Source of the DNA: Streptacidiphilus pinicola
Lineage (GTDB): Bacteria > Actinomycetota > Actinomycetes > Streptomycetales > Streptomycetaceae
Direction: 5' to 3'
NCBI RefSeq assembly: GCF_003258295.1
Contig: NZ_QKYN01000111.1
Span: 24,842 to 88,841 of the forward strand
DNA length: 64,000 nucleotides
Made by a program: the position numbers and the translations under genes. Every line of letters begins with the position of its first letter. The stretch's first letter is position 1. Below, in pieces: positions 9,174 to 57,262 of this stretch. Below the pieces are notes generated by a model. The model was not told the origin of the DNA and did not search any database. It worked only from the letters and a program-made list of their open reading frames with translations.

Positions 9174-9696
9174 GTCGCCTCTTCTCTAGCTCGACGAGCT
9201 GTCTTACCAGGGTCAACATCCAACCAGGCCGGATTCGTTCCCGCTCGGTCTTTCTTTTTGAGCGGTGCCCGGAGGTGGCGGGGATGGAGACGGCGGTCTT
9301 GGTAGCGATGCTGTCGTGGTGCGTTGTTGTCGTTGAGGACGTGCCCGGAGTGGGAACGGTTCATGCCTGCCGCCGTCGATGCCCGACCTTCACTCGAACG
9401 TGTTATCGAACGCCCGTGCGAGGTGCGCGTAGCATAAGCCACGATGAGCTGGAAGCAATAGCCCCAGCCCACGCACCGGTAGCCTGCATCCCGGCAGCAT
9501 TCCTGCCATGGTGCCTTGGCCCCCGGGTCCGAGGCCAGGGAAGTAGCTTTTGTTCGCAGCCAGCGGAAGTCGGCATGAATTCCGTCACTCGAACAACCGG
9601 CCCCTTCCCGAACACTGAGCAGTCCAGACCGTCCAGACAGTCCAGGTAGTGCAGTCAGCAGCAGCGAAGGCTTTGAAGGTTAAGGAGCAGGACCGC
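9174..9696. other. 523-bp intergenic region upstream of parE
   Basis: No gene is evident. The region separates the divergent DUF7455 and parE genes, so it must hold both promoters. Near parE there is a triple GTCCAG repeat (9621-9647), and a degenerate LexA-type box lies at 9394-9409. I could not assign -10/-35 boxes with confidence. Confidence 0.5.
9394..9409 (+). promoter_or_regulatory. degenerate LexA-like box upstream of parE
   Basis: TCGAACGTGTTATCGA matches 10 of the 12 fixed positions of the actinobacterial SOS box TCGAAC-N4-GTTCGA. It lies about 290 bases before the parE start. The two mismatches are in the core GTTC half, so binding is doubtful. Confidence 0.25.
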
Positions 9697-11802
9697 GTGA
9701 CCGCCGAACAGACCGTGCCCGCCAGCGCCCAGCAGGACGGCTCCAACTACACCGCGCGGCACCTTCTCGTCCTCGAGGGGTTGGAAGCGGTTCGCAAGCG
9801 CCCCGGCATGTACATCGGGTCCACCGACAGCCGGGGCCTGACGCACTGCCTGTGGGAGATCATCGACAACGCCGTCGACGAGGCCCTGGCCGGCTTCTGC
9901 GACCACATCGACGTGCTGTTGCACGACGACGGCTCGGTCGAGGTCCGCGACAACGGCCGCGGCATCCCCGTCGACGTCGAGCCCAAGACGGGCCTGTCCG
10001 GCGTCGAGGTCGTCATGACCAAGCTGCACGCCGGCGGCAAGTTCGGCGGCGGTTCCTACGCCGCCTCCGGCGGTCTGCACGGCGTCGGCGCCTCCGTGGT
10101 GAACGCGCTCTCCTCCCGCCTCGACGTCGAGGTCGACCGCAGCGGCCACGTCCACGCGCTCAGCTTCCGCCGTGGCACGCCCGGCCGGTTCAAGGGAGCG
10201 GGCCCGGACGCCGAGTTCGCGCCCGGCAGCGACCTGGACAAGAGCCGCAAGGCCCCGCGCGGCAAGACCGGCACCCGGGTCCGCTACTGGGCGGACCGGC
10301 AGATCTTCCTCAAGGACGCCAAGCTCTCCCTGGAGCAGCTGCACAACCGCGCACGCCAGACCGCCTTCCTGGTACCGGGCCTGACGATCGTGGTCCGCGA
10401 CGAGCGCGGCGTCGACGGCGCGCCCGTGGACGAGCAGGTCTTCCGCTTCGACGGCGGCATCGCCGAGTTCTGCGACTTCCTGGCGCCCGACAAGCCGGTC
10501 TCCGACACGCTGCGCTTCACCGGCCAGGGCACCTTCAAGGAGACCGTGCCGGTCCTCGACGAGCTCGGACACATGACCCCGACGGAGGTCGTCCGCGAGC
10601 TCGGCGTCGACATCGCGCTGCGCTGGGGCACCGGCTACGACACCACGGTCCGCTCCTTCGTCAACATCATCTCCACCCCCAAGGGCGGCACCCACGTCGC
10701 CGGCTTCGAGCGCTCGCTGACCAAGACCTTCAACGAGGTGCTGCGCGGGGTGAAGCTGCTGCGCGTCGCCGAGGACGACGTCATCAAGGACGACGCCCTC
10801 GAAGGCCTGACCGCGGTGGTCACCGTGCGGCTGGCCGAGCCGCAGTTCGAGGGCCAGACCAAGGAGGTGCTCGGCACCTCCGCGGCGCAGCGGATCGTGG
10901 CAGGTGTGGTCGCCAAGGAGCTCAAGGAGTTCCTGACCTCCACCAAGCGCGACGCCAAGGCGCAGGCGCGCTCGGTGATGGACAAGGTGGTCTCGGCCGC
11001 GCGCACCCGCGTCGCCGCCCGTCAGCACAAGGACGCGCAGCGTCGCAAGACCGCGCTGGAGACGTCCTCGCTGCCCGCCAAGCTGGCCGACTGCCGCAGC
11101 GACGACGTGGACCGCAGCGAGCTGTTCATCGTCGAGGGTGACTCGGCGCTCGGCACCGCCAAGGTGGCCCGCAACTCCGAGTTCCAGGCGCTGCTGCCGA
11201 TCCGGGGCAAGATCCTCAACGTCCAGAAGGCGTCCGTCTCGGACATGCTGAAGAACGCCGAGTGTGCCGCGATCATCCAGGTGATAGGGGCCGGCTCCGG
11301 CCGCACCTTCGACATCGACCAGGCGCGTTACGGCAAGGTCATCATGATGGCGGACGCCGACGTCGACGGCTCCCACATCCGCTGCCTGCTGCTGACCCTG
11401 TTCCAGCGCTACATGCGACCGATGGTCGAGGCCGGCCGGGTCTTCGCGGCCGTCCCGCCGCTGCACCGGATCGAGCTGACCAACCCGCGCAAGGGTCAGG
11501 ACAAGTACATCTACACCTACTCCGACAACGAGCTGCGCAACACGCTGCTGGAGCTGCAGCGCAAGGGCCAGCGCTGGAAGGACCCGATCCAGCGCTACAA
11601 GGGTCTCGGTGAGATGGACGCCGACCAGCTGGCGGAGACCACCATGGACCCGCGGCACCGCGTGCTGCGCCGGGTCAACCTCGGCGACCTCGACGCCGCC
11701 GAGAGGGTCTTCGACCTGCTGATGGGCAACGACGTCGCGCCGCGCAAGGAGTTCATCGTCGAGTCCGCCGCGCTGCTGGACCGTTCCCGCATCGACGTCT
11801 GA
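9697..11802 (+). CDS. parE: DNA topoisomerase IV subunit B
   Basis: This type IIA topoisomerase ATPase/TOPRIM subunit has 701 residues from GTG 9697 (TAAGGAG ribosome site). Seen in order: GHKL ATPase (DNAVDEALAG, DNGRGIP, GGLHGVGASVVNALS), transducer domain, TOPRIM with EGDSALGTAK, and the metal-binding MMADADVDGSHI. The ALGT in the TOPRIM motif, in place of the AGGS of GyrB, and the position next to hrdB fit ParE. The matching ParC gene is at 27560-30025 on the other strand. Together they decatenate daughter chromosomes. A hairpin terminator follows. Confidence 0.9.
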   Translation: MTAEQTVPASAQQDGSNYTARHLLVLEGLEAVRKRPGMYIGSTDSRGLTHCLWEIIDNAVDEALAGFCDHIDVLLHDDGSVEVRDNGRGIPVDVEPKTGLSGVEVVMTKLHAGGKFGGGSYAASGGLHGVGASVVNALSSRLDVEVDRSGHVHALSFRRGTPGRFKGAGPDAEFAPGSDLDKSRKAPRGKTGTRVRYWADRQIFLKDAKLSLEQLHNRARQTAFLVPGLTIVVRDERGVDGAPVDEQVFRFDGGIAEFCDFLAPDKPVSDTLRFTGQGTFKETVPVLDELGHMTPTEVVRELGVDIALRWGTGYDTTVRSFVNIISTPKGGTHVAGFERSLTKTFNEVLRGVKLLRVAEDDVIKDDALEGLTAVVTVRLAEPQFEGQTKEVLGTSAAQRIVAGVVAKELKEFLTSTKRDAKAQARSVMDKVVSAARTRVAARQHKDAQRRKTALETSSLPAKLADCRSDDVDRSELFIVEGDSALGTAKVARNSEFQALLPIRGKILNVQKASVSDMLKNAECAAIIQVIGAGSGRTFDIDQARYGKVIMMADADVDGSHIRCLLLTLFQRYMRPMVEAGRVFAAVPPLHRIELTNPRKGQDKYIYTYSDNELRNTLLELQRKGQRWKDPIQRYKGLGEMDADQLAETTMDPRHRVLRRVNLGDLDAAERVFDLLMGNDVAPRKEFIVESAALLDRSRIDV

Positions 11803-46556: not shown

Positions 46557-47279
46557 ATGTCGCAGGTGGAGAACGACGGGGTGCGGGGAGCGGGTGTGCG
46601 GGTGGTGGTCGTCGACGACCACCCGTTGTTCCGGGAGGGGCTGCGGGCCGCCCTGGAGAGCACCGAGGACGTGCGGGTGGTCGCCGAGGCCGAGACCGCG
46701 GCCGGTGGCGTGGCGGCGGTGGCCGCACAGCGACCGGACGTGGTGGTGATGGACCTGTCGCTGCCGGACGTCTCCGGGATCGAGGCCACCAAACAGCTGG
46801 CCCAACTGCACCCGGGCGTCCCGGTGCTGATGCTGACCACCTCCGACGACGACGGCAGCCTGCTCGGCGCCCTGCAGGCCGGGGCGCGCGGCTACCTGGT
46901 GAAGGGTGCGGGCCGCGACGAGGTGCTGCACGCGGTGCGTACCGTGGCCCACGGGGGCGCGGTGTTCAGCGCGGACGTGGCCATCCGCATCTCCGCGCTG
47001 CTCACCGGCGGTGTCCGCCGCGAGGCGGAGCAGCTCTTCCCGAGCCTGACCGCGCGTGAGGTCGAGGTGCTGGACCTGGTCGCCCGGGGGCTGGACAACC
47101 GCCGCATCGCCCGCGAGCTGTTCCTCGCGGAGAAGACCGTGCGCAATCACATCTCGCACATCTTCGACAAGTTGGACGTCGCCTCCCGCACCGAGGCCGC
47201 CGCGCGGGCCCGCGACGCCGGGCTCGGCGAGCCGCCCCGGCAGCCGGGGCCGGCGGGCACGCCCGGCAGCACCGGGTGA
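46557..47279 (+). CDS. LuxR/NarL-type response regulator
   Basis: The 240-residue protein has a receiver ([15 protein letters not shown], phospho-Asp in [15 protein letters not shown]) and a LuxR helix-turn-helix ([31 protein letters not shown]). ATG 46557 has no clear ribosome site; ATG 46512 is in frame upstream. The kinase gene follows 100 bases later, so the order is regulator-kinase, separated by a repeated 35-bp site. Confidence 0.9.
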
Positions 47280-47379: not shown

Positions 47380-49533
47380 GTGACGGCGGAGCTGAGCACG
47401 ACGCCACGCACCGCGTGGGCCGGGAGCGGACGGATGGGAGCCGCCTACGCGGCCTGCGGTGTCGCGCTCGGCGCCTGCTTCGTCTGGCTGGCGCTGGCCT
47501 ACACGGGTCTGGGCGGCTCGCGCCTGGCCTCGCTGGACTTCGGCATCTTCGGCTCGCACATCCTCTTCATGCTGGCCTGCGCGCTCGCGGGCACGTTCAG
47601 CCTCACCCACCCCTCGGGCGGAGCCGTCGGGCGGTTGCTGCTGCTGACGAGCACGGGAGAGCTGGTCGCTCAGGCCGTCGGCATCACGGCGGGGGCGCTG
47701 GGGTGCGGCGTCGCGGTGCGCACCGGCGTGGTGCTGGTGGGCTACGCCGGTGACTGCCTGTCCATCTTCCTCCTCTACGGCCTGCCGTTCTGGCTCCCCG
47801 ACGGGAGACTGCCCGGACGGCGCTGGGGCAGGGCGCTCGTCGCCGGGATCGCCGCCTGGACGCTCTGCGAGGTCTACCTCGACACCGGGACCCAGGACGA
47901 CTGGTACGGGATGCCCAACCCGCTGGCCACCGGCGAGCCCTGGGTCACCGTCAAGAACGCCCTGTCGTCCGTCGTCGGTTCGGTGCTGATCTACATGCCG
48001 GTCAGCCTCTCCGCGTTGGGCTTCCTGGTGCTCGCCGTCCGGGCGTGGCGCTGGCGGGGGCGGGGCAGGGGGCGACGGAGCGAGTCGGGGCGCCGACCGG
48101 GCCGGCCGCCACTGCTGCCCGGCGCGCTGCTCGTGGTGGTGGTGCCGTTCCTGCTGCTGACCGTGGGGAGTTACGTGGACTTCTTCTTCCCCCTGCCGAG
48201 CGCCGCGAGCCTGACGCTCTTCTACAGCCCGCTGGTGCTGCTGCCGCTCGGCCTCGTCTTCTTCTTCACCCGGGACCGCTCCGCCCACCTCGACCGGGCC
48301 ACCCGCCGGGTGCTGGCCGTGCTCGTCACCCTCGCGGTGCTGGTGGTCGGGTACTTCGCGCTGGCGATCGGCCTGTCCGACGTGCTGCCGAGCACCCGCA
48401 CCCCCGGTGCGCTGGTGCTGGCCGTGGGCTCGCTGGCGATCGGCCTGCTGCTGCGCGCGACCGGCGGCTGGGCGGTGCGCGTCGTCGACCGCTCGTACTA
48501 CGGCGACCGGGCCCGGCCGTACCACGTGGTGCGGGAGCTGGCGGGACGGCTGAGCCGGACGGTGACGCCGGGCGAGGCGCCGCGGCTGCTGTGCGCGAGC
48601 GTCGTCACCACGCTGCGCTTCCCCGCCGCGCGGGTCCTGGTGCACACCAGCGGCGGAAGCCGGGAGACGGCGGCGCTGGGCGAGGCGGCGGGACGGGCGT
48701 GGCACCGCTTCGCGCTCGTCTTCGAGGGCGAGGAGGTCGGCGCGCTCGAGGTCGCGGCGCGCGCGGGGGAGCCGGAGCTGGACCAGCAGGACCACGACGT
48801 GCTGCGGCTGCTCGCGGACCAGGCCGCGCCCGCGATCGCCTCGCTGGGCCTCTACCAGGAGCTCCAGGCGAGCCGGGAACGGATCGTGCTGGCCCGCGAG
48901 GAGGCACGGCGGAGGCTCCGCCGCGACCTGCACGACGGCCTCGCACCGGCACTGTCCGGCCTGCGGCTGCAGGTCGACACGGCCCGCGCGGGCCTCGCCG
49001 GGGACGACCCGGCCGGCGGGCGGCTCGGCGGCGTCTCCGAGGGCATCGCCGACGCGATCACCGAGCTGCGGCGGATCACCGCCGGGCTGACCCCGGCCGT
49101 GCTGGACCGGGACGGTCTGGGTCCGAGCCTGCGCGGTCTCGCGACCGGCCTCGCCGGCCGCAACCTGCTGATCGACGTCGAGCTGCGCCCGGACCCGCTG
49201 CCGGAGCTCCCGGCCGCCGTCGAGGTGGCGCTGTACCGGATCGCCTCCGAGGCCCTGCACAACGTGGTCCGGCACTCGGGTGCCCGTCACGCGCGGCTCT
49301 GCCTGGGTGTCGCCGACGGCGTGGTGCTGCTGGAGGTCGGCGACGACGGCCACGGCATGGACGCTCCGCGGCGGCTCGCTGCCGCGGGCGGCGCCGGTGC
49401 GGGCGGGGTCGGGCTGCGGTCGATGGCCGAGCGGGCGCAGGAGCTGGGCGGGACGCTGCTGGTGCGGGGCTGTTCGGAGGGGGCCGAGGGCGTGGTGGTC
49501 CGCGCCGAGATCCCGGTGCGGCCGGGCGAGTAG
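47380..49533 (+). CDS. large membrane sensor histidine kinase with GAF-like domain
   Basis: The 717-residue kinase starts at GTG 47380 within GAGGAGAGGTG; ATG 47329 is an in-frame alternative. About nine membrane helices fill residues 15-370. A GAF-like domain follows (LLRLLADQAAPAIASLGLYQ), then a HisKA_3 helix with the phospho-acceptor His (RRRLRRDLHDGLAPALSGLR) and a HATPase domain (SEALHNVVRHSGARHA, DDGHGM, GVGLRSMAERAQELGG). The cognate regulator is upstream. The bilobed design matches MacS/NarL-type kinases whose signal enters through the membrane segment. Confidence 0.9.
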   Translation: MTAELSTTPRTAWAGSGRMGAAYAACGVALGACFVWLALAYTGLGGSRLASLDFGIFGSHILFMLACALAGTFSLTHPSGGAVGRLLLLTSTGELVAQAVGITAGALGCGVAVRTGVVLVGYAGDCLSIFLLYGLPFWLPDGRLPGRRWGRALVAGIAAWTLCEVYLDTGTQDDWYGMPNPLATGEPWVTVKNALSSVVGSVLIYMPVSLSALGFLVLAVRAWRWRGRGRGRRSESGRRPGRPPLLPGALLVVVVPFLLLTVGSYVDFFFPLPSAASLTLFYSPLVLLPLGLVFFFTRDRSAHLDRATRRVLAVLVTLAVLVVGYFALAIGLSDVLPSTRTPGALVLAVGSLAIGLLLRATGGWAVRVVDRSYYGDRARPYHVVRELAGRLSRTVTPGEAPRLLCASVVTTLRFPAARVLVHTSGGSRETAALGEAAGRAWHRFALVFEGEEVGALEVAARAGEPELDQQDHDVLRLLADQAAPAIASLGLYQELQASRERIVLAREEARRRLRRDLHDGLAPALSGLRLQVDTARAGLAGDDPAGGRLGGVSEGIADAITELRRITAGLTPAVLDRDGLGPSLRGLATGLAGRNLLIDVELRPDPLPELPAAVEVALYRIASEALHNVVRHSGARHARLCLGVADGVVLLEVGDDGHGMDAPRRLAAAGGAGAGGVGLRSMAERAQELGGTLLVRGCSEGAEGVVVRAEIPVRPGE

Positions 49534-49701: not shown

Positions 49702-49869
49702 ATGACCGCGAATCCCTCACCCACCGCGAGCAGCGATGTCGCGGAGGAGCCCGTCACGCAGGACCCGCCCGTGGCGGAGGACCCGGACACCTGCCTGCAC
49801 CCGAACGAGTGCCCGCCCATGCCGGCCCCGCCGAGCGGACCGCGCAAGCCGCACAAGCCGGACGACTGA
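49702..49869 (+). CDS. small Pro-rich protein with a CLHPNEC motif
   Basis: ATG 49702 follows AGGAGC. The 55-residue protein is acidic then Pro-rich, with a single Cys pair (DTCLHPNECPP) and a Lys/Pro tail. No signal peptide or membrane helix. I do not recognise a family. It follows the kinase gene and carries the same upstream 35-bp site, so it may be the output of that two-component system. It converges on the multicopper oxidase operon across a perfect terminator. CLHPNEC could chelate a metal such as copper; this is speculation. Confidence 0.6.
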   Translation: MTANPSPTASSDVAEEPVTQDPPVAEDPDTCLHPNECPPMPAPPSGPRKPHKPDD

Positions 49870-49953: not shown

Positions 49954-51768
49954 TCACATCCCGCTCATACCGCCGCTCATACCGCCCATGCCGCCGACGT
50001 CCAGGACGGCGCCGGGCATCACCGCGAACTGCCGCATCATCCCGGCGTCCTCGTGCTCCAGGATGTGGCAGTGGTACATGTACCGCCCGGACGCGCCACG
50101 GAACTGGCCTGCCACCGTGACCATCTGACCCGGCGGCACCCGCATCACGTCCTTCCAGCCCACCAGCGACGCGTCGATCGGCAGCGACTCCAGGTGTGCG
50201 ACCGGCTCGCCGGGCGCGGTGCCGCCCTTCGTGGGCAGGAACTTGGCCGTGTCGTAGCCGTCGATCGACAGCGGCTGGAAGCGCGTCAGGTGGATGTGGA
50301 TCGGGTGCAGGATGCCGCTCAGGTTGAGGATCTTCCACACCTCCCAGCCATCCTGCCGCGCCCGCCAGTTGAGCTGGTCGTCGAAGTGCCGGGCCAGCCG
50401 CCGGTAGGTGGTGGTCACCCCGTCCTGGTAGGTCACCTGGACGATGCCGTCCTCGGCGCCGCCCGTCGGCGCCTGGGAGGCCGGGACCTCGCCCAGCTCC
50501 CACAGCCCCAAGGTGCCGTCCGGGTCGGCCGCGAGCGCCAGCATCCGGTGCATGTGGTCCGGCGGGAGCAGCTCGTGCGTCAGCCGGTAGTAGGACGGCG
50601 AGAGGGTCTTCGGCAGCCGGAAGGTGTCGGTCAGCGGCGCGTCCGCGACGCGGAACTGCATCACGTCCGGCTCCGGCAGCCGGCTGGCCGGCAGCGGGTC
50701 GCCCGGCTTCACCCCGGGCGGCAGCGGGTCGCCGCGGAACGGCGCCTGCGCGGAGTTGACCAGCCGCAGCGACTGCCCGCGGAACGCGCCGAAGTCCACC
50801 AGCACGTCGGCCCGTTCGGCCGGCGCCAGGGTCAGTCCCTCGGCGGGGATCGGCAGTGGTGCGCCGAGCAGCCCGCTGTCGGTCCCGATCAGCCAGGCCG
50901 AGCCGGTCACCACCTGGTCGCTCCCGTCCAGCAGATGCAGCCGGTAGGTGCGCGAGTTGGACGCGTTCAGCACCCGGAACCGGTACCAGCCGGGCCGCAC
51001 CTCGCAGTACGGCCAGATGGTCCCGTTGACCAGCGTGTACGGCCCGAGGAACGGCAGCGTGCCGGTGGTCTTGTGCAGCATCCGTCCGGTGAAGCGGCCG
51101 GACGCGTCGGTCTCCAGGTTGCGGTCGCAGACGATCAACGGGATCTCGCGGTCACCGCCCGGCAGTCCGAGCGCCTCCTCCTCGTCGTCCCGGAGCAGGT
51201 ACATCCCGACCAGGCCGGAGAAGACGTTCAGCCGGGTGACGTTCATCGCGTGGTCGTGGTACCAGAGCGTCATCGCGGGCTGGTCGTTCGGGTACTCGGA
51301 GAGCTGCGCGTCGCCGTGCAGCACCGCGTTCTCCATCCACCCGTCGTTCCCGCCGCCGGTCACGGCCCCGTGCAGATGCGTCACCTGCCACGCCGGCAGT
51401 GCGGCCACGCCCTTGACGGGCTGGGCACGCCCGATGCCAGGGTCGTTCATGGCCAGCGAGGGGTTGCCGGGCGCGTCGGCGAGGAAGGCGTCCACGGCCG
51501 GGTAGGGCGTCGTGGTGCCGTTCTCCCACGCCACGCGGACGCGTTGGCGCCGGTGCACGTCCAGGACCGGCCCGGGGAAGTGCCCGTCGTAGGTCCACAG
51601 CGGGGTCGGCGGCAGCTGTGAGTGCAGGCGCAGGCTGACGCCCTCGGTGCGGAAGGTGAACCGCGGCTCCGGGTCCGCACGGTCCGGCCGCAGGCGTGGC
51701 GGGAGCCGCAGCGGATCGGCGAACTTGGCGAGGACGGTGGTGGTGGTTGTCGTTTCGATCGCTGTCAT
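49954..51768 (-). CDS. multicopper oxidase (CotA/phenoxazinone-synthase-like)
   Basis: The 604-residue enzyme has the full set of copper ligands: HLHG, WYHDHAMN (type 2/3), HPIHIHL and YHCHILEHEDAGMM (type 1 and 3, with His-Cys-His). The long bilirubin-oxidase/CotA-type sequence, without a signal peptide, resembles cytoplasmic phenoxazinone synthase and laccases; these couple oxidation of phenols, aminophenols or bilirubin to water formation. The C-terminus is Met/Gly rich (MGGMSGGMSGM), a possible copper-loading tail. It is the last gene of a five-gene coupled operon, so it may oxidise or dimerise that pathway's product. Confidence 0.9.
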   Translation of the reverse strand: MTAIETTTTTTVLAKFADPLRLPPRLRPDRADPEPRFTFRTEGVSLRLHSQLPPTPLWTYDGHFPGPVLDVHRRQRVRVAWENGTTTPYPAVDAFLADAPGNPSLAMNDPGIGRAQPVKGVAALPAWQVTHLHGAVTGGGNDGWMENAVLHGDAQLSEYPNDQPAMTLWYHDHAMNVTRLNVFSGLVGMYLLRDDEEEALGLPGGDREIPLIVCDRNLETDASGRFTGRMLHKTTGTLPFLGPYTLVNGTIWPYCEVRPGWYRFRVLNASNSRTYRLHLLDGSDQVVTGSAWLIGTDSGLLGAPLPIPAEGLTLAPAERADVLVDFGAFRGQSLRLVNSAQAPFRGDPLPPGVKPGDPLPASRLPEPDVMQFRVADAPLTDTFRLPKTLSPSYYRLTHELLPPDHMHRMLALAADPDGTLGLWELGEVPASQAPTGGAEDGIVQVTYQDGVTTTYRRLARHFDDQLNWRARQDGWEVWKILNLSGILHPIHIHLTRFQPLSIDGYDTAKFLPTKGGTAPGEPVAHLESLPIDASLVGWKDVMRVPPGQMVTVAGQFRGASGRYMYHCHILEHEDAGMMRQFAVMPGAVLDVGGMGGMSGGMSGM

Positions 51769-53009
51769 GACGCCTCCTCGGAGCCGGACGTGACGGGTTC
51801 GGCGCGCGGCCGCAGCGCGGCGGCGGCCTGGGGGAGCAGCGGCAGCGCGGCGAGGGCCGCGCCGACCGTGCACACGCCGGACCATCCGGCGTGTGTCCAG
51901 ACGGCGGCGGAGAGCGCGGAACCCGTCGCGCCGCCGGCGAAGTAGCAGGTCATGTAGACGGTGGTCACCCGGCTGTGGGTGCCGGTGGGCAGCAGGGCGT
52001 AGATCTGCTGCTGGTTGGCGGTCTGCACCCCGCGCAGCCCCAGATCCAGCAGGACGGCTCCGACGCCCAGCAGCACCAGGTTCCCCCGCCCGAGGGCGAG
52101 GGGCATGAACGCCACGACCATCAGGACGTTGAAACCGAAGCGCGCGGGGCGCACATGTCCGTGGTCGCACCACCGCCCGGCCGGCTGCGCCAGCAGTACG
52201 CCCGCGACCCCGGTCAGCCCGAACAGGCCGATCCCGGCCTCCCCGAACCGGTAGGGCGGACCGGCGAGCAGGAACGCCGTGGGCGTCCAGAACGCGGAGA
52301 ACGAGCCGAAGACCGCGAAGCCGCTGAGGCATCGTGCGAGGAGGACGGGATGCGCGCGGAGTAGTTGCACTATCTGGGGGTGCGGGGAACTGCGCGAGAA
52401 ACCACCCGGTGCCGATGGCCCTGCTCGCTCGGCGCGCCACGTGGGTGGGTGGCGTGCCGCGCAGTTCCCCGCGCCCCTGGAAAGTGCAAGTGCGGCCGCT
52501 GCCAACAGGACCGCCGCGGCCGCGTAGACCGCGCGCCAGCCCCAGGCCGCGGCCAGCTGGCCCGAGACCACCCGGGCCAGCAGGATCCCGGCGGTGAGTC
52601 CGCCCATGACCGTGCCCACGGCACGTCCGCGGCGTTCCGGGCCCGCCGCGGACGCGGTGAGGGCGACGAGGACCTGGGCCGCGCTGCCGAAGAGGCCCAG
52701 GAGGGAGGTGGCGAGGGCCAGGACGGGAAGGGCCGGGGCCGTCGCGGCGAGCGCCGCCGCCGGGACGGACACCCACAGCAGGGCCGCGGCCAACCGCCCC
52801 CTCGCGACGCGGTCGCCCAGGGGGACGATCAGCAGCAGGCCCGCGGCGTAGCCGAGTTGGCCCGCCGAGACCACGGTCGCCGCGCTCGCGCGGGAGACGC
52901 CGAGCGCGGCGGAGAGCGTGGGCAACAGGGGTTGGGCGTAGTAGATCCCGGCCACGCCCACCCCGGAGGCGAACGCCGTGACGGCCAGTTCGCCTCGCCG
53001 CAGGCTCAT
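51765..53009 (-). CDS. MFS transporter with a repeat-derived central loop
   Basis: The 414-residue protein has about 12 membrane helices and the AraJ/YnfM-type MFS layout (GIYYAQPLLPTLSAALGVS at the N-terminus; motif A-like PLGDRVARGRL). It is coupled at both ends by ATGA overlaps. Residues about 174-215, in the cytoplasmic loop between helices 6 and 7, are encoded by an interspersed palindromic repeat (52364-52490) that stays in frame without a stop. The insert is Arg/Pro/Ser rich (SRGAGNCAARHPPTWRAE), unlike the rest. It probably exports the operon's product, if the loop insertion is tolerated. Confidence 0.85.
   Translation of the reverse strand: MSLRRGELAVTAFASGVGVAGIYYAQPLLPTLSAALGVSRASAATVVSAGQLGYAAGLLLIVPLGDRVARGRLAAALLWVSVPAAALAATAPALPVLALATSLLGLFGSAAQVLVALTASAAGPERRGRAVGTVMGGLTAGILLARVVSGQLAAAWGWRAVYAAAAVLLAAAALALSRGAGNCAARHPPTWRAERAGPSAPGGFSRSSPHPQIVQLLRAHPVLLARCLSGFAVFGSFSAFWTPTAFLLAGPPYRFGEAGIGLFGLTGVAGVLLAQPAGRWCDHGHVRPARFGFNVLMVVAFMPLALGRGNLVLLGVGAVLLDLGLRGVQTANQQQIYALLPTGTHSRVTTVYMTCYFAGGATGSALSAAVWTHAGWSGVCTVGAALAALPLLPQAAAALRPRAEPVTSGSEEAS
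52364..52490. repeat. interspersed palindromic repeat, copy 2, inside MFS gene
   Basis: GTTGCACTA then a GGGGTGCGGGGAACTGCGCGA arm, and at the other end GCGCAGTTCCCCGCGCCCCTGG with GTGCAAG, as in copy 1. The centre differs from copy 1. Unusually it lies within a coding sequence. Confidence 0.85.
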
Positions 53010-54427
53010 CGGGGCTCCACGTCCGCGGGGCGGCGGGCGTCGAGCCAACGGCCGTCCGGTGTGCCGAACTCCACGTCGTGGCCGAGCTCGTCGAGGCGGT
53101 AGACGCTGACTCCGCGCCGGAACGTCTGCCGCACGCGGCCCGTCATCGTCCAGCCCTCGTACGCGGACCAGCCGCACTTGGAGCGGATGGCGTCCGGCTC
53201 CAGCATCCAGCGTTCGTCCGCGTCGAAGAGCACGAAGTCCGCGTCGAGGCCGGGCCGCAGCCGGCCCTTGCGCTCGTCGAGACCGAACAGCTCCGCCGGA
53301 TGCTCGGCCAGCAGCCGGACCAGGCAGGAGAGTTGCGCGTCCGGTGAGTCCATCGGGGCGCGCCGGCGCAGGCCGGTGTGGACGGCGGGGAACATCTCCT
53401 GGACGCCCGGCAGGCCGGGCGGTGCGTCGGCGGGGGCGCGGAGCTTCTCCGCGCGGGTGTGCGGGGCGTGGTCGCTGCCGAGCGTGGCGACCTCGTGGGC
53501 CAGCACGGCCTGCCACAGCCGGTCCTGGTCCGGTCGGTACCGGATCGCGGGGCTGAGCCGGGTGCGCGCGCCGACGCGCGACGTGTCCTCGGCGGTGAAG
53601 GAGAGATGATGCGGTGTCACCTCGAATGTGACCGGCAGCCCGGCGTGGGCGCCGGCCGTCAGCAGGTCCGCCTCCTCGGCGGTGGAGGCGTGCAGCACGT
53701 GCACGGACGTGCCGTGGCGGCGGACCAGCTCCAGGACCCGGGCCACCGCGACGATCGCGCCGCTGCGCGGGCGGTGCCGCTCGTACTCGGCGTAGCCGGA
53801 CGGCGCGCCGCGCCACTCGTCGAGGAGGCTGAACACGCCGTCGTCCTCGGCGTGCAGCAGCAGCCGCAGGCCGGCCTCGGCCGCGGTGCGGAACACCTTC
53901 TCCAGCTGCACCGGGTCCCGCACCACGTGCGGGGCGGTGTGGTGGCCGGCGAGGAAGACCTTGACGCTGGTGGCCTCGCGGGCGCCGACCTCGCGCAGCG
54001 GGGAGGGGTCCTCACCGGCGACGCCGAGGTGGAACCGGTAGTCCACCAGCGAGGTGCCGTCGACCAGTTCGGCCTTGCGGTGGGCCTCCTCGCCGGTGCG
54101 CAGCGGCGGGACGGTGTTCGGCATGTCGACGACGGTGGTGATCCCGCCCGCGACGGCGGCCCGGCTCGCGTGCGCCCAGTCCTCCTTGTGGGTCAACCCG
54201 GGGGTGCGGAAGTGGACATGGGAGTCGATGAGGCCGGGCAGCAGGTGGCGGCCGCCGCCGTCGAGCGTCCGCCGCGCGGGCGGACGCTCGTTCGGCCCCA
54301 GCAGACAGGCGATCCGGCCGCCCGACACGGCCAGCCCGCCCGTCACCACCCCGTCCCCGCTCACCAGCCGGACCCCGGTGACCACCAGGTCGTAGGGCTG
54401 CTCCCGGAGTTCACGGAGCTCACTCAT
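53006..54427 (-). CDS. cyclic-amidohydrolase family protein (dihydroorotase/allantoinase-like)
   Basis: The 473-residue protein has the TIM-barrel amidohydrolase metal set: DSHVHFRTPG (His-70, His-72), the carboxylated Lys-156 in SVKVFLAG, LLHAED, HVLHAST and SDHAP. It belongs to the dihydroorotase/allantoinase/hydantoinase group, which opens or closes cyclic amides. It starts at ATG 54427, overlapping the PrpF-like gene by eight bases, and ends within the MFS start. No other pyrimidine or allantoin gene is near. In this operon it may form or open a cyclic imide or ureide in a biosynthetic pathway; this is inference. Confidence 0.82.
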   Translation of the reverse strand: MSELRELREQPYDLVVTGVRLVSGDGVVTGGLAVSGGRIACLLGPNERPPARRTLDGGGRHLLPGLIDSHVHFRTPGLTHKEDWAHASRAAVAGGITTVVDMPNTVPPLRTGEEAHRKAELVDGTSLVDYRFHLGVAGEDPSPLREVGAREATSVKVFLAGHHTAPHVVRDPVQLEKVFRTAAEAGLRLLLHAEDDGVFSLLDEWRGAPSGYAEYERHRPRSGAIVAVARVLELVRRHGTSVHVLHASTAEEADLLTAGAHAGLPVTFEVTPHHLSFTAEDTSRVGARTRLSPAIRYRPDQDRLWQAVLAHEVATLGSDHAPHTRAEKLRAPADAPPGLPGVQEMFPAVHTGLRRRAPMDSPDAQLSCLVRLLAEHPAELFGLDERKGRLRPGLDADFVLFDADERWMLEPDAIRSKCGWSAYEGWTMTGRVRQTFRRGVSVYRLDELGHDVEFGTPDGRWLDARRPADVEPR

Positions 54428-55439
54428 CGCCGACACCCACCGCGACCGCGCCCAGCGCCTGGGTCTCCTTGCCGCCGACGCTCACCCAGAGCAGTTCGTC
54501 GTCCGGCCCGTCCCCGGTCGCGGCGTAGGAGGCCACGACCTGACGTGCGGGTGTGTCGATGACGAGCCGTCCGGGAGCAGCCGTGTCCGCGGCCAGCAGC
54601 CGGTTCGGGACGGTGCCGCGCAGGGCGGAGGCGGCGGCCAGGCAGACCGCGCCGGTCAGGGCCAGCTCGGGATGCCAGCCGCCGACCGTCAGCGCGCGGA
54701 CCGCGAGGTGCCCGGGGGCGACCGGGACCACGGCGGCGACCTTGGGGAAGGCCCCGTTCAGCGGCCAGCCCAGGCGGGCCGCCTGCCGCCGCCGCAGCCG
54801 CTCCAACGTGGCGTACAGGTCCGGCTGTTCACCGCGGAACAGAGCCTCCCGGTCGCGCACGCCCAGGCGAGCGCCGTCGACGAACAGGTACGGGTTGGCC
54901 ATCCGCACCACGCGCCCGCCGTCGCGCAGCAGGGTGCCGAGGCGGGTGCCGGGCGGGGCGATGAAGTGGGCGGTGAAGACGGTGTGCCGCGGCGACGCGT
55001 GGTCCACCTGGCAGACCACCTGGTCGCCGTTGTTCAGCACCCGGGCCCGGATCCGGTCGCCCGCGCGGAGCGCGGGCAGCCGGCCGGCCTGGGCCGCGGC
55101 CGTCACGGCGGCGAGCAGCGAGTGCCCGCAGTTGCCGTTCAGGTCGAAGTGGTCGTCGGCGTCCGGCATCGCCTGCACGAAGCGGTAGTCGACGTCGAAC
55201 AGCGGGTGGGCGGAGGGCGCGATCAGCGCCCACTTGAGCACCTCGCCGGGGGTGCCGGCGTCGGGGAGCCGACGGCGGATCCGGGTCAGGGCCGTGACCA
55301 GCTCCTCGCGGTCGTGCGGGAGGGAGTCGGCGTCCAGGACCAGGGTTGGTCCGGGAGCGCCCATGGCCCGGGCGAGGGCGGCGAATCCGGCGGACGTGGG
55401 TGCGGTGAGCAGCGTGGGGGTCAGGGTCGTGGCGGTCAT
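54420..55439 (-). CDS. PrpF-like isomerase/tautomerase
   Basis: The 339-residue protein matches the PrpF (2-methylaconitate isomerase)/4-oxalomesaconate tautomerase fold: FDLNGNCGHSLLAA (the GNCGN-type active site with Cys) and VRMANPYLFVDGARLGV (NP..FVD). The second half-repeat is weaker. PrpF-type enzymes shift double bonds or isomerise tricarboxylates by proton transfer on a Cys/Lys pair. The gene is coupled at both ends. No methylcitrate-cycle gene is adjacent, so its role is probably in the cryptic pathway of this operon. Confidence 0.72.
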   Translation of the reverse strand: MTATTLTPTLLTAPTSAGFAALARAMGAPGPTLVLDADSLPHDREELVTALTRIRRRLPDAGTPGEVLKWALIAPSAHPLFDVDYRFVQAMPDADDHFDLNGNCGHSLLAAVTAAAQAGRLPALRAGDRIRARVLNNGDQVVCQVDHASPRHTVFTAHFIAPPGTRLGTLLRDGGRVVRMANPYLFVDGARLGVRDREALFRGEQPDLYATLERLRRRQAARLGWPLNGAFPKVAAVVPVAPGHLAVRALTVGGWHPELALTGAVCLAAASALRGTVPNRLLAADTAAPGRLVIDTPARQVVASYAATGDGPDDELLWVSVGGKETQALGAVAVGVGDE

Positions 55440-57262
55440 GACGCCACCTCCAGTAGTTCTCGGGCCTCGGCCGGGCGGGAGGCGGCGCGGCGCACCGCGA
55501 ACTCCTCGCGCCACAGCTCGAACATCAGCAGCGACCAGGTCGCCAGGGCCAGGCAGTCGGCCGGCCGGTTCTGCTGGGCGCACAGCAGCCGGTCGACGGC
55601 GGCCGGATCCAGCAGTCCGCCGGCGCGCAGCCGGGCGGGGGAGAGCACCTCGCGCGTGTACGCCCACAGCGGCGTCCCGGGCGCGAGCATCGCCGTGATC
55701 GGCAGCGTGAAGGGCTGCTTGGGGCGTTCCAGCACGCTGCGCGGCAGCAGTCCGCGGGCGGCCGCGTAGAGGGCGACCTTGCCGCGTCCGGGCTCCGGCG
55801 AGAGCCGGTGCGACTGCGGTAGCGCGCGGGCGAGCTCGCGCACCGACCGCTGGCAGAACGGCAGTCGGACCTCGACGGCGTGCGCCATGCTCAGGTGGTC
55901 GACCCGGCGCAGGTGGTAGGCGGGCAGCCGGACCAGGGTCTCGAAGTCGGTCAGGACGTCGAGCCGGGAGCGGTGCGCGGCCTCCTGCCGCAGCCGTTCG
56001 GTGATCGCGTCGGAGGCGCTGCCGCGCTCGGCGACGAACGCCCGGTAGTCGGCGCTGTAGAGGCGCGGGCGGGCCTCGGCCGGAATGGCCGCGAGGGCGT
56101 CCACGTAGTCGGGCAGCCAGGTGCCGTGCGTGGTCATGGCCTTGTGGATGCGGCCGTAGCCGGCGAACACCTCGTCCGCCGCGTCGCCGGTCAGCGCCAC
56201 CTTGAACCCGGCCCGGTGCACGGCCTCGAACAGGCCGTAGGTGCTGAGCGCGATCGGGTCCGCGTTGGGCTGGCCCAGGTGCCAGGCCACGGCCGGGAGC
56301 AGCTCGGGGAAGCGGGCCACGTCCAGCTCGACCTGGTGGTGCTCGGTGCCGGCGCGCCGGGCCACCTCGCGGGCGAAGTGCCGTTCGTCGTGCGGCCATT
56401 CACCGTGGTAGGCGATGTTGAACGAATGCACCGCGCCGGGCGCGGCGTCGGCCATCATCGCGGTGACCAGGCTGGAGTCCAGCCCGCCGCTGGTGATCGC
56501 GCACACTCGCGCGTCCGCGACCGACAGCCGCCGGACCTCCTCGGCCAGCGCCTCCCGCACCTGTTCGCCCGGCTCCCCTCCGGTGACGGCCGGGCGCTCC
56601 GGCGCGGGTCGGCGGTGCAGCCGCAGCCCGCGCGAGCGCGAGCAGACGGCGGTGGTGCCGGGCGGCAGCACCTGCACCCCCTCGACGAGGGTGTGCTCGC
56701 CGAACGGCGTCTTGGTCGCCAGGTAGCTGTCCAGTCCCGGCTCCCACAGCGACGGCCGTTCCCGGCCCATGGCCAGCAGCGCGGGCAGCTCGGAGGCGAA
56801 GTGCAGCCGGCGGCCGTCCCAGCGGTAGTAGATCGGCTTCATACCGGCGTCGTCCGTGGCCAGGACGAGCGTCGGCTCGGCGCGCAGGTCGATCAGCGCG
56901 ACCGCGAACATGCCGTCGAGCTGTTCGGCGAAGGCGGGTCCGTGCTCCTGGTGGAGTGCGGGGAGCACGGCGCCGTCGCAGCGGTCGGCGAAGTGGTGGC
57001 CGCCTGCCCGCAGTTGGGCGCGCAGCTCGTCGTGGTTGTAGATCTCGCCGTTGAAGACGGCCTTGATGCGTCCGTCCGCGCTCTCGTAGGGCTGCTGCCC
57101 GCCGCCCGGGTCGGTGATCGCGAGCCGGTTGCTGCCCAGCGCCCACCCGGCGCCCTGCGCGAGCCGGGCCTCGTCGGGCCCGCCGTGCCGCTGCAGTGCC
57201 CCGGCCGCGCGCATGTCGTGCGGCGAGAGATCGGCGTCGAAGTGGCCGTGGATTCTGCACAT
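55436..57262 (-). CDS. glutamine-hydrolysing asparagine synthetase-like amidotransferase
   Basis: The 608-residue protein has an N-terminal Ntn glutaminase with the nucleophile Cys-2 (MCRIHGHF), NGEIYNHDELR and the usual beta-sheet. The C-terminal synthetase domain has the ATP PP-loop SGGLDSS and GDAADEVFAGYGR. AsnB-like proteins make amides by adenylating a carboxylate and adding ammonia from glutamine, and are frequent in natural-product clusters. It starts at ATG 57262 (GGAAGG upstream) and overlaps the PrpF-like gene by four bases. It is the first gene of the operon. In place of the usual HRGPDD near the N-terminus it reads RHGGPDE. Confidence 0.88.
   Translation of the reverse strand: MCRIHGHFDADLSPHDMRAAGALQRHGGPDEARLAQGAGWALGSNRLAITDPGGGQQPYESADGRIKAVFNGEIYNHDELRAQLRAGGHHFADRCDGAVLPALHQEHGPAFAEQLDGMFAVALIDLRAEPTLVLATDDAGMKPIYYRWDGRRLHFASELPALLAMGRERPSLWEPGLDSYLATKTPFGEHTLVEGVQVLPPGTTAVCSRSRGLRLHRRPAPERPAVTGGEPGEQVREALAEEVRRLSVADARVCAITSGGLDSSLVTAMMADAAPGAVHSFNIAYHGEWPHDERHFAREVARRAGTEHHQVELDVARFPELLPAVAWHLGQPNADPIALSTYGLFEAVHRAGFKVALTGDAADEVFAGYGRIHKAMTTHGTWLPDYVDALAAIPAEARPRLYSADYRAFVAERGSASDAITERLRQEAAHRSRLDVLTDFETLVRLPAYHLRRVDHLSMAHAVEVRLPFCQRSVRELARALPQSHRLSPEPGRGKVALYAAARGLLPRSVLERPKQPFTLPITAMLAPGTPLWAYTREVLSPARLRAGGLLDPAAVDRLLCAQQNRPADCLALATWSLLMFELWREEFAVRRAASRPAEARELLEVAS

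Follow-up and report, generated by a model that had tools for sequence, protein, structure and literature searches.

A conserved AsnB-PrpF-amidohydrolase gene group in Streptacidiphilus pinicola and its relatives, a candidate orphan pathway to a small nitrogen heterocycle

The 4-oxalomesaconate tautomerases LigU and GalD, the methylaconitate isomerase PrpF and the methylitaconate isomerase Mii have unsaturated di- or tricarboxylates as their common class of chemistry. Amidotransferases of the AsnB type occur in natural-product clusters, and for a TsnB9 relative an ATP-dependent activation of a free carboxylate is reported (PMC13418202). Dihydroorotase, allantoinase and L-hydantoinase are cyclic amidohydrolases, and phenoxazinone synthase (PhsA) is a multicopper oxidase. 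Relatives of these enzymes are encoded one after another in the stretch of DNA analysed here, referred to as the window (64,000 nucleotides of Streptacidiphilus pinicola, NCBI RefSeq assembly GCF_003258295.1, contig NZ_QKYN01000111.1, positions 24,842 to 88,841 of the forward strand), which is located on contig 38 of its 8.4 Mb genome. Five minus-strand genes spanning 49954-57262 code, in this order, for an AsnB-type amidotransferase, a PrpF/LigU-fold isomerase (the operon PrpF), a dihydroorotase-like cyclic amidohydrolase (AHD), an MFS transporter and a PhsA-type multicopper oxidase (MCO). On the evidence of their sequences, they appear to form an orphan small-molecule pathway with a putative nitrogen-ring product.

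The overlaps at the successive junctions are 4, 8, 4 and 4 bases, and the Pfam families found are Asn_synthase (247.4 bits) with GATase_7, PrpF (54.1), Amidohydro_1 (79.7), MFS_1 (126.3) and Cu-oxidase_2/3, in agreement with the five-gene coupled operon, with overlaps of 4-8 bases at every junction, that an earlier note on this DNA had described. The five genes would be co-transcribed; a scan for a sigma-70-like promoter of the operon gave none. PrpF, AHD and MCO all score under the NCBIfam equivalog cut-offs of the nearest named enzymes and, therefore, the names used here denote classes of fold and chemistry, not functions.

The gene group is not confined to this strain. By gene calling on fetched loci, using a simple codon-position script such that starts and some genes are approximate, we found ten distinct loci with the arrangement AsnB-PrpF-AHD-(MFS)-MCO and a histidine kinase, here named type-A (the window, L004-L009, L051, L052 and L053). 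The order AsnB-PrpF-AHD-MCO thereby recurs at nine loci besides that of the window, of which eight also have the MFS gene in place, and the window PrpF is 61-93% identical to that of seven of the nine; the remaining two are L004, with AsnB split by a frame break, and L009, with broken frames in a genome that is 76% complete. L004-L009 belong to Streptacidiphilus, as do the window and L051, and six of the Streptacidiphilus loci came from a scan of named genomes; a PrpF match was present in nine of the 14 same-genus genomes listed and in none of the other five. All ten type-A loci are adjoined by the histidine kinase (family f15), and at nine of them a response regulator (family f20) adjoins the kinase, L009 being the one in which it was not seen; the flank opposite the kinase varies. 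Kinase and response regulator likely control the expression of the operon. The synteny of asnB, prpF, amidohydrolase and oxidase genes beyond the strain, which the earlier note had suggested looking for, is thus borne out, and a strain-specific artefact is rejected.

The AsnB-PrpF-AHD core extends well beyond type-A. A search of 394 genomes of the family gave PrpF matches in 92 of them at E 0.001 and, at E <=1.7e-23, 52 places in 49 genomes; these 52 places and two weaker matches, L096 and L097, are the 54 PrpF loci counted below. L102 duplicates L006 and was excluded from the locus counts and from the PrpF and AHD alignments, and the alignments left out any protein shorter than 75% of the query. 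Outside the 54 stand L098 and L100, for which the gene caller gave no PrpF, and G218:C475 (E 1.1e-17), which was not fetched. AsnB is the gene immediately upstream of PrpF in 52 of the 54 loci, all except L090 and L099 (the latter at a contig edge), a coupling that distinguishes the operon-type PrpF from LigU, GalD, PrpF and Mii, and the overlap is exactly 4 bases (gap -4) in 38 of the 52 adjacent pairs; in L098, AsnB stands beside a PrpF of 32% identity. At E 1e-100, AHD was found at 38 places in 37 of the 394 genomes, each no more than 2.07 kb from PrpF. The distance matrices of AsnB, PrpF and AHD correlate over 36 loci with r 0.91-0.95, which partly reflects shared ancestry.

The core was present in 39 fetched loci (38 from the family and one from outside), in quite different clusters. 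Within five genes, 21 of the 54 loci have AHD with an acyl-CoA-dehydrogenase-like and a cysteine-synthase-like enzyme, six have AHD with the acyl-CoA-dehydrogenase-like enzyme only (such that this enzyme occurs in 27 of the 54, and the cysteine-synthase-like one too in 21 of the 27), ten have AHD with MCO and kinase, and one (L040) has AHD only. One family of FAD enzymes occurs in eight loci, its single member tested against NCBIfam being urate-hydroxylase-like. It is plausible that partners of these three kinds are suited to work on a nitrogen heterocycle. The neighbour families, typed with Pfam and NCBIfam on one or two representatives each, include PALP, cupin, TauD, HpcH/HpaI, FAD_binding_3 (urate-hydroxylase-like), FMN reductase, flavin reductase, hexapeptide transferase, L-amino-acid-ligase domain, SDR, PIG-L and tRNA-synt_1g. 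In a sample of 394 genomes of the class, AHD occurred in five, one of which (G1044) is from another family and carries AsnB, PrpF, an acyl-CoA-dehydrogenase-like gene and AHD together with a cysteine-synthase-like gene, an FAD hydroxylase, two ATP-grasp proteins and an MFS protein. A draw of 396 genomes from the phylum gave PrpF at E 1e-20 in the window genome only, and a protein search gave relatives of PrpF in Micromonospora, Actinosynnema, Saccharothrix and Actinoplanes at 45-47% identity among the best 120 of 188 matches.

The AsnB protein passes the asparagine-synthase cut-off of TIGR01536 (330.7 against 267.1 bits) and belongs to the AsnB family by its motifs, an N-terminal MCRI with the Ntn cysteine and the ATP loop SGGLDSS. 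The MCR motif was found in 51 of 55 AsnB-family proteins, in 44 by script and in seven visible at the called start; the 55 include the duplicate L102 as well as L098 and L103, both outside the 54 loci, and the four without a visible motif (L004, L009, L053 and L088) are split, truncated or uncertain in their start. The closest solved structure in a PDB search is the hydroxyamidotransferase 7ylz, which we take to be a TsnB9-type trichostatin enzyme; it and the AsnB amidotransferases of natural-product clusters are the closest known systems. The operon AsnB differs from the TsnB9 system in being paired with an isomerase instead, and no gene of the operon looks like TsnB6 or TsnB7, the amide-oxygenase partners named for that system (PMC13418202). 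TsnB9-like hydroxamate synthesis is not favoured, since a partner of this kind is missing among the five genes.

The AlphaFold2 (AF2) model of the operon PrpF has a mean predicted local distance difference test (pLDDT) of 93.1, and entries for Mii, YbhH, LigU and PrpF occupy Foldseek ranks 1-15, with DapF appearing from rank 16. According to the entry titles, LigU K66M with substrate and LigU C100S are among the nearest folds, and one PrpF entry among the matches contains trans-aconitate. Lys69 and Cys104 occupy the alignment positions of a Lys and a Cys in both YbhH and Mii and are kept in 52 of 53 and in all 53 of the aligned PrpF proteins, respectively. The predicted fold and the catalytic Lys and Cys, both shared with LigU, GalD, PrpF and Mii, point to membership of the PrpF/LigU group and to a predicted chemistry on an unsaturated di- or tricarboxylate. 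The operon PrpF differs from these enzymes in its identity of about 20% and in motifs of its own, C-G-H-S and W-H-P, and it lies far below the NCBIfam equivalogs for 4-oxalomesaconate tautomerase (64.1 of 440 bits) and 2-methylaconitate isomerase, prpF (26.1 of 440.55 bits).

AHD keeps the motifs HxHxR, PNT and DHAPH and the residue K156, and its metal-site residues, shared with dihydroorotase, allantoinase and L-hydantoinase, are invariant. R74 and N104 are conserved in 38 of 38 PrpF-linked AHD proteins (the 39th sequence of the alignment is the allantoinase of the window genome). Both residues, together with H323, the His of DHAPH, are common to AHD and the genome's own PyrC, whereas in the genome's allantoinase N and S take the places of R74 and H323, and its hydantoinase differs at all three. 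In dihydroorotase, these Arg, Asn and His residues bind the carboxylate of the substrate. The first PDB match by sequence is a dihydroorotase, and the AF2 model has a pLDDT of 86.2. AHD falls under the best dihydroorotase equivalog (305.3 of 482 bits), barely passing the broad TIGR00857 (279.9 against 279.05), under that for allantoinase (293.8 of 357.85 bits), where R replaces the N of the HxHxN active site, and under the hydantoinase/dihydropyrimidinase profile TIGR02033 (175.9 of 393.25 bits). It lies outside any pyrimidine operon. The housekeeping enzymes are separate and each above its curated cut-off, with PyrC beside PyrB (C8), allantoinase beside allantoicase (C46) and a hydantoinase (C184), to which AHD is 28%, 40% and 32% identical, respectively, and the identity of AHD with a housekeeping gene is rejected on their account. 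These separate enzymes, and an AHD that at E 1e-100 is never found away from PrpF in the 394 family genomes, support the earlier note's view of a small-molecule pathway, which looks conserved and outside primary metabolism. We regard AHD as the likely ring-closing enzyme. A database relative of 666 residues (P0222) carries a fused flavin-reductase domain (PF01613), a link between AHD and the flavin partner seen in the Streptomyces clusters.

MCO keeps four copper motifs (HLHG, WYHDH, HPIHIH and HCHILEHEDAGMM), which make it a multicopper oxidase and are all shared with PhsA. It matches phenoxazinone synthase in PDB entry 3gyr with E 6.5e-164 and 550 bits and reaches 721.9 bits on the PhsA profile NF045554, below the cut-off of 950, such that PhsA is a closer relative than the CotA-type oxidase named in the earlier note. 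The difference from PhsA lies in this score and in the setting of the gene, in an overlapping operon with amide-forming and likely ring-closing enzymes. The MFS protein matches TIGR00895 weakly (49.9 of 418.55 bits) and is reduced to a remnant of 41 residues in S. jiangxiensis (L006), hence dispensable in one relative. Export before oxidation, as proposed earlier, now looks weak with the loss of MFS in that species and with no signal peptide seen on MCO by reading its sequence. The variable middle of the MFS gene contains an inverted repeat; L005, L007 and L008 have similar sequence in their MFS regions, and L004 has short matches.

We propose that the conserved gene group builds a small nitrogen heterocycle by amidation of an unsaturated tricarboxylate, most likely aconitate, followed by isomerisation, ring closure and oxidation, a reading that we prefer tentatively and at somewhat less than an even chance. 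AsnB would amidate the tricarboxylate and PrpF would turn cis-aconitate, from the citric acid cycle, to the trans geometry; an isomerase would be placed between amidation and cyclisation because only the trans geometry brings the two terminal carboxyls close to each other. AHD would then close the amide onto a second carboxylate to give an imide or dihydroxypyridine ring of six members; from aconitamide, this would be 2,6-dioxo- or 2,6-dihydroxy-pyridine-4-carboxylate (citrazinate type; glutaconimide form). Aconitate would fit best because it is available, because PrpF enzymes handle related acids and because the trans geometry is needed. The free carboxylate of a citrazinate-type ring would stand 1,3 to the carbonyl that is cleaved, just as it does in dihydroorotate, and would thus fit the Arg, Asn and His of AHD. 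The PhsA-like copper oxidase would act last, giving a quinonoid or coupled product, and the two-component system beside the operon would govern expression. In the Streptomyces relatives, the dehydrogenase-, hydroxylase- and cysteine-synthase-like partners would desaturate and hydroxylate the ring and attach it to serine, for which mimosine synthesis is a model. We infer the substrates, the order of the steps, the product, the direction of the transporter and the regulation; of the amidate-isomerise-cyclise logic in the earlier note, the fit with the retained catalytic residues stands, and the chemistry and product are still putative. A bolder version, which we think rather unlikely, is a carrier-protein-free building of pyridines from aconitate in which the copper oxidase would couple citrazinate to an aza-quinone pigment here, and loading onto serine would lead to mimosine-like amino acids in the Streptomyces relatives.

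Several observations weigh against this proposal. No solved isomerase in the Foldseek search shares more than about 20% identity with the operon PrpF, the sequence does not fix the substrate of AsnB, whether aspartate or another acid, and genes for an aconitase or an aldolase are missing from the operon. In the Foldseek search with AHD, L-hydantoinase and allantoinase come nearest and a dihydroorotase only eighth, and these relatives of AHD also run hydrolytically. AHD is absent nearby in 16 of the 54 PrpF loci (12 of the MetRS-like type described below and four others) and, therefore, AsnB-PrpF does not always feed an AHD cyclase. L090 has, by gene calling and tblastn, a PrpF without AsnB, and L100 (G151:C13, ~9220-10140) consists of pieces of a broken PrpF gene with part of an AHD gene behind them and no AsnB. 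In the open-licence literature we found no biosynthetic precedent for citrazinate, the papers listed for it dealing mostly with carbon dots and synthetic chemistry. L100 looks like a decayed copy, an intact set being present elsewhere in the same genome.

The chief rival changes the acid. If PrpF were LigU/GalD-like, the substrate would be a keto-tricarboxylate of the 4-oxalomesaconate type, and its amidation and cyclisation would lead to a 2-pyridone-dicarboxylate, which corresponds to 2-pyrone-4,6-dicarboxylate with nitrogen in the ring. The tautomerase is the best NCBIfam match of PrpF (64 against 26 bits for prpF, both far under the cut-off), LigU entries are among its top fold matches, an HpcH/HpaI-family aldolase lies beside the core in seven loci and a PIG-L protein, from the family of the GalB hydratase, in 11 of the 12 MetRS-type loci; however, neither the aldolase nor the PIG-L family occurs in any of the ten type-A loci, and we consider this alternative unlikely, though a serious one. 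More doubtful is the idea that PrpF epimerises an amino acid, as DapF or DcsC does, and that AHD acts on a hydantoin or ureido amino acid, the product being a modified amino acid or a piece of a dipeptide. DapF and the O-ureidoserine racemase 7vdy do appear in the fold search, L-hydantoinase is the first Foldseek match of AHD, and cysteine-synthase-like enzymes occur in many relatives and L-amino-acid-ligase domains in some, but PrpF, LigU and Mii precede DapF in the fold ranking and the conserved pair is the Lys and Cys of PrpF/LigU, unlike the two Cys used by DapF; moreover, the operon in the window has no amino-acid enzymes.

Ordinary catabolism or primary metabolism seems quite improbable: the AHD superfamily is rich in catabolic enzymes and the best NCBIfam match of MFS, a weak one, is the aromatic-acid symporter subfamily, yet occurrence within the genus is patchy, the first gene encodes an ATP-using amidating enzyme, the housekeeping cyclic amidohydrolases are separate and the core is also used in other biosynthetic-looking clusters. 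As the nearest relative of MCO is the o-aminophenol oxidase PhsA, the operon might make an o-aminophenol for coupling to a phenoxazinone, but MCO stays under the PhsA cut-off, aminophenol formation is not known from any gene of the operon and there would be nothing for AHD and PrpF to do, all of which makes this very improbable. We give least credence, close to none, to a ribosomal peptide pathway with AsnB as macrolactam synthetase on the peptide encoded at 49702-49869. This small Cys/His/Pro-rich open reading frame (ORF) has counterparts in relatives and AsnB is weakly lasso-cyclase-like, but the score (117.2 bits) is well under the cut-off of 525, AsnB retains the glutaminase Cys and exceeds the asparagine-synthase cut-off, and the ORF is found past the oxidase gene, on the opposite strand; by these scores, a peptide macrolactam is not favoured at this locus.

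The AsnB-PrpF pair, and its triad with the dihydroorotase-like enzyme, can be seen as a recurring biosynthetic cassette. The gene group was undescribed in the open-licence literature searched, where absence is no proof. The operon has no polyketide synthase or nonribosomal peptide synthetase (NRPS) signatures, and rule-based cluster finders may overlook the cassette; the earlier note's statement that there is no NRPS holds for this operon and not for all relatives, since in L104 the core lies beside ATP-grasp ligases with an adenylation-domain-like stretch, recognised by eye only, not far off. If AHD does close the ring, dihydroorotase chemistry would here serve biosynthesis, acting on an acid of the citric acid cycle. 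The cassette also offers a genomic handle on ~50 Streptomycetaceae loci, for which no product descriptions were found in the open-licence literature. The features of the window are collected in Table 1.

Table 1. Coordinates in the window of the operon genes and of adjacent or included features.
Feature	Coordinates	Strand	Basis
AsnB-type glutamine-dependent amidotransferase, 608 aa	55436..57262	-	Pfam PF00733/PF13537, TIGR01536, motifs
PrpF/LigU-fold alkene-carboxylate isomerase, 339 aa	54420..55439	-	PF04303, AF2 model, Foldseek
AHD, dihydroorotase-like cyclic amidohydrolase, 473 aa	53006..54427	-	PF01979, motifs, AF2 model, Foldseek
MFS transporter, 414 aa	51765..53009	-	PF07690 126.3 bits
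MCO, PhsA-type multicopper oxidase, 604 aa	49954..51768	-	NF045554, PDB 3gyr, copper motifs
Histidine kinase, convergent with the operon	47434..49533	+	HisKA_3/HATPase_c
LuxR/NarL-type response regulator, partner of the kinase	46557..47279	+	Response_reg/GerE
ORF of 55 residues with CxHPxxCPPxP motif, between kinase and oxidase	49702-49869	+	
Inverted-repeat element of 125 bases within the MFS coding region	52365-52489		43-nt arms, 81% complementary

Further copies and variants of the gene group were also seen. The window genome has a second set, AHD-AsnB-PrpF-MFS, at G000:C13:60000-65964 (L040), with identities of 59%, 59% and 48% and an AHD that reaches the contig end; its neighbours look, by eye, like genes for a molybdenum hydroxylase and XdhC. 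G000:C221 (L103) holds a third AsnB paralogue (46%), in surroundings that by eye resemble an NRPS/PKS region with genes of the aminotransferase and TauD-like kinds. Twelve loci (including L057, L058, L087, L089, L091, L094 and L095) have the arrangement AsnB-PrpF-SDR-methionyl-tRNA synthetase (MetRS)-like-glycosyltransferase, next to a divergent PIG-L gene and to neighbours of the FUR/LuxR kind, and look like a distinct orphan cluster. They resemble the clusters with class-I aminoacyl-tRNA-synthetase-like proteins, for which asparagine-synthetase-like and cysteine-synthase genes are reported (PMC2922099), and the two sets may overlap; as a difference, the main text of that source mentions neither PrpF nor dihydroorotase nor amidohydrolase. 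In L096 and L097, AsnB-PrpF stands, with no AHD, beside ATP-grasp, glutamate-cysteine-ligase-like and transporter-like proteins, whose domains were typed in L096. Finally, the 55-residue ORF between kinase and oxidase has counterparts in the same place in L004, L005, L007 and L008, with weak matches in L009 and L051, in a search with low-complexity filters off and generous E-values; its Cys/His/Pro-rich product is possibly a metal-binding peptide.

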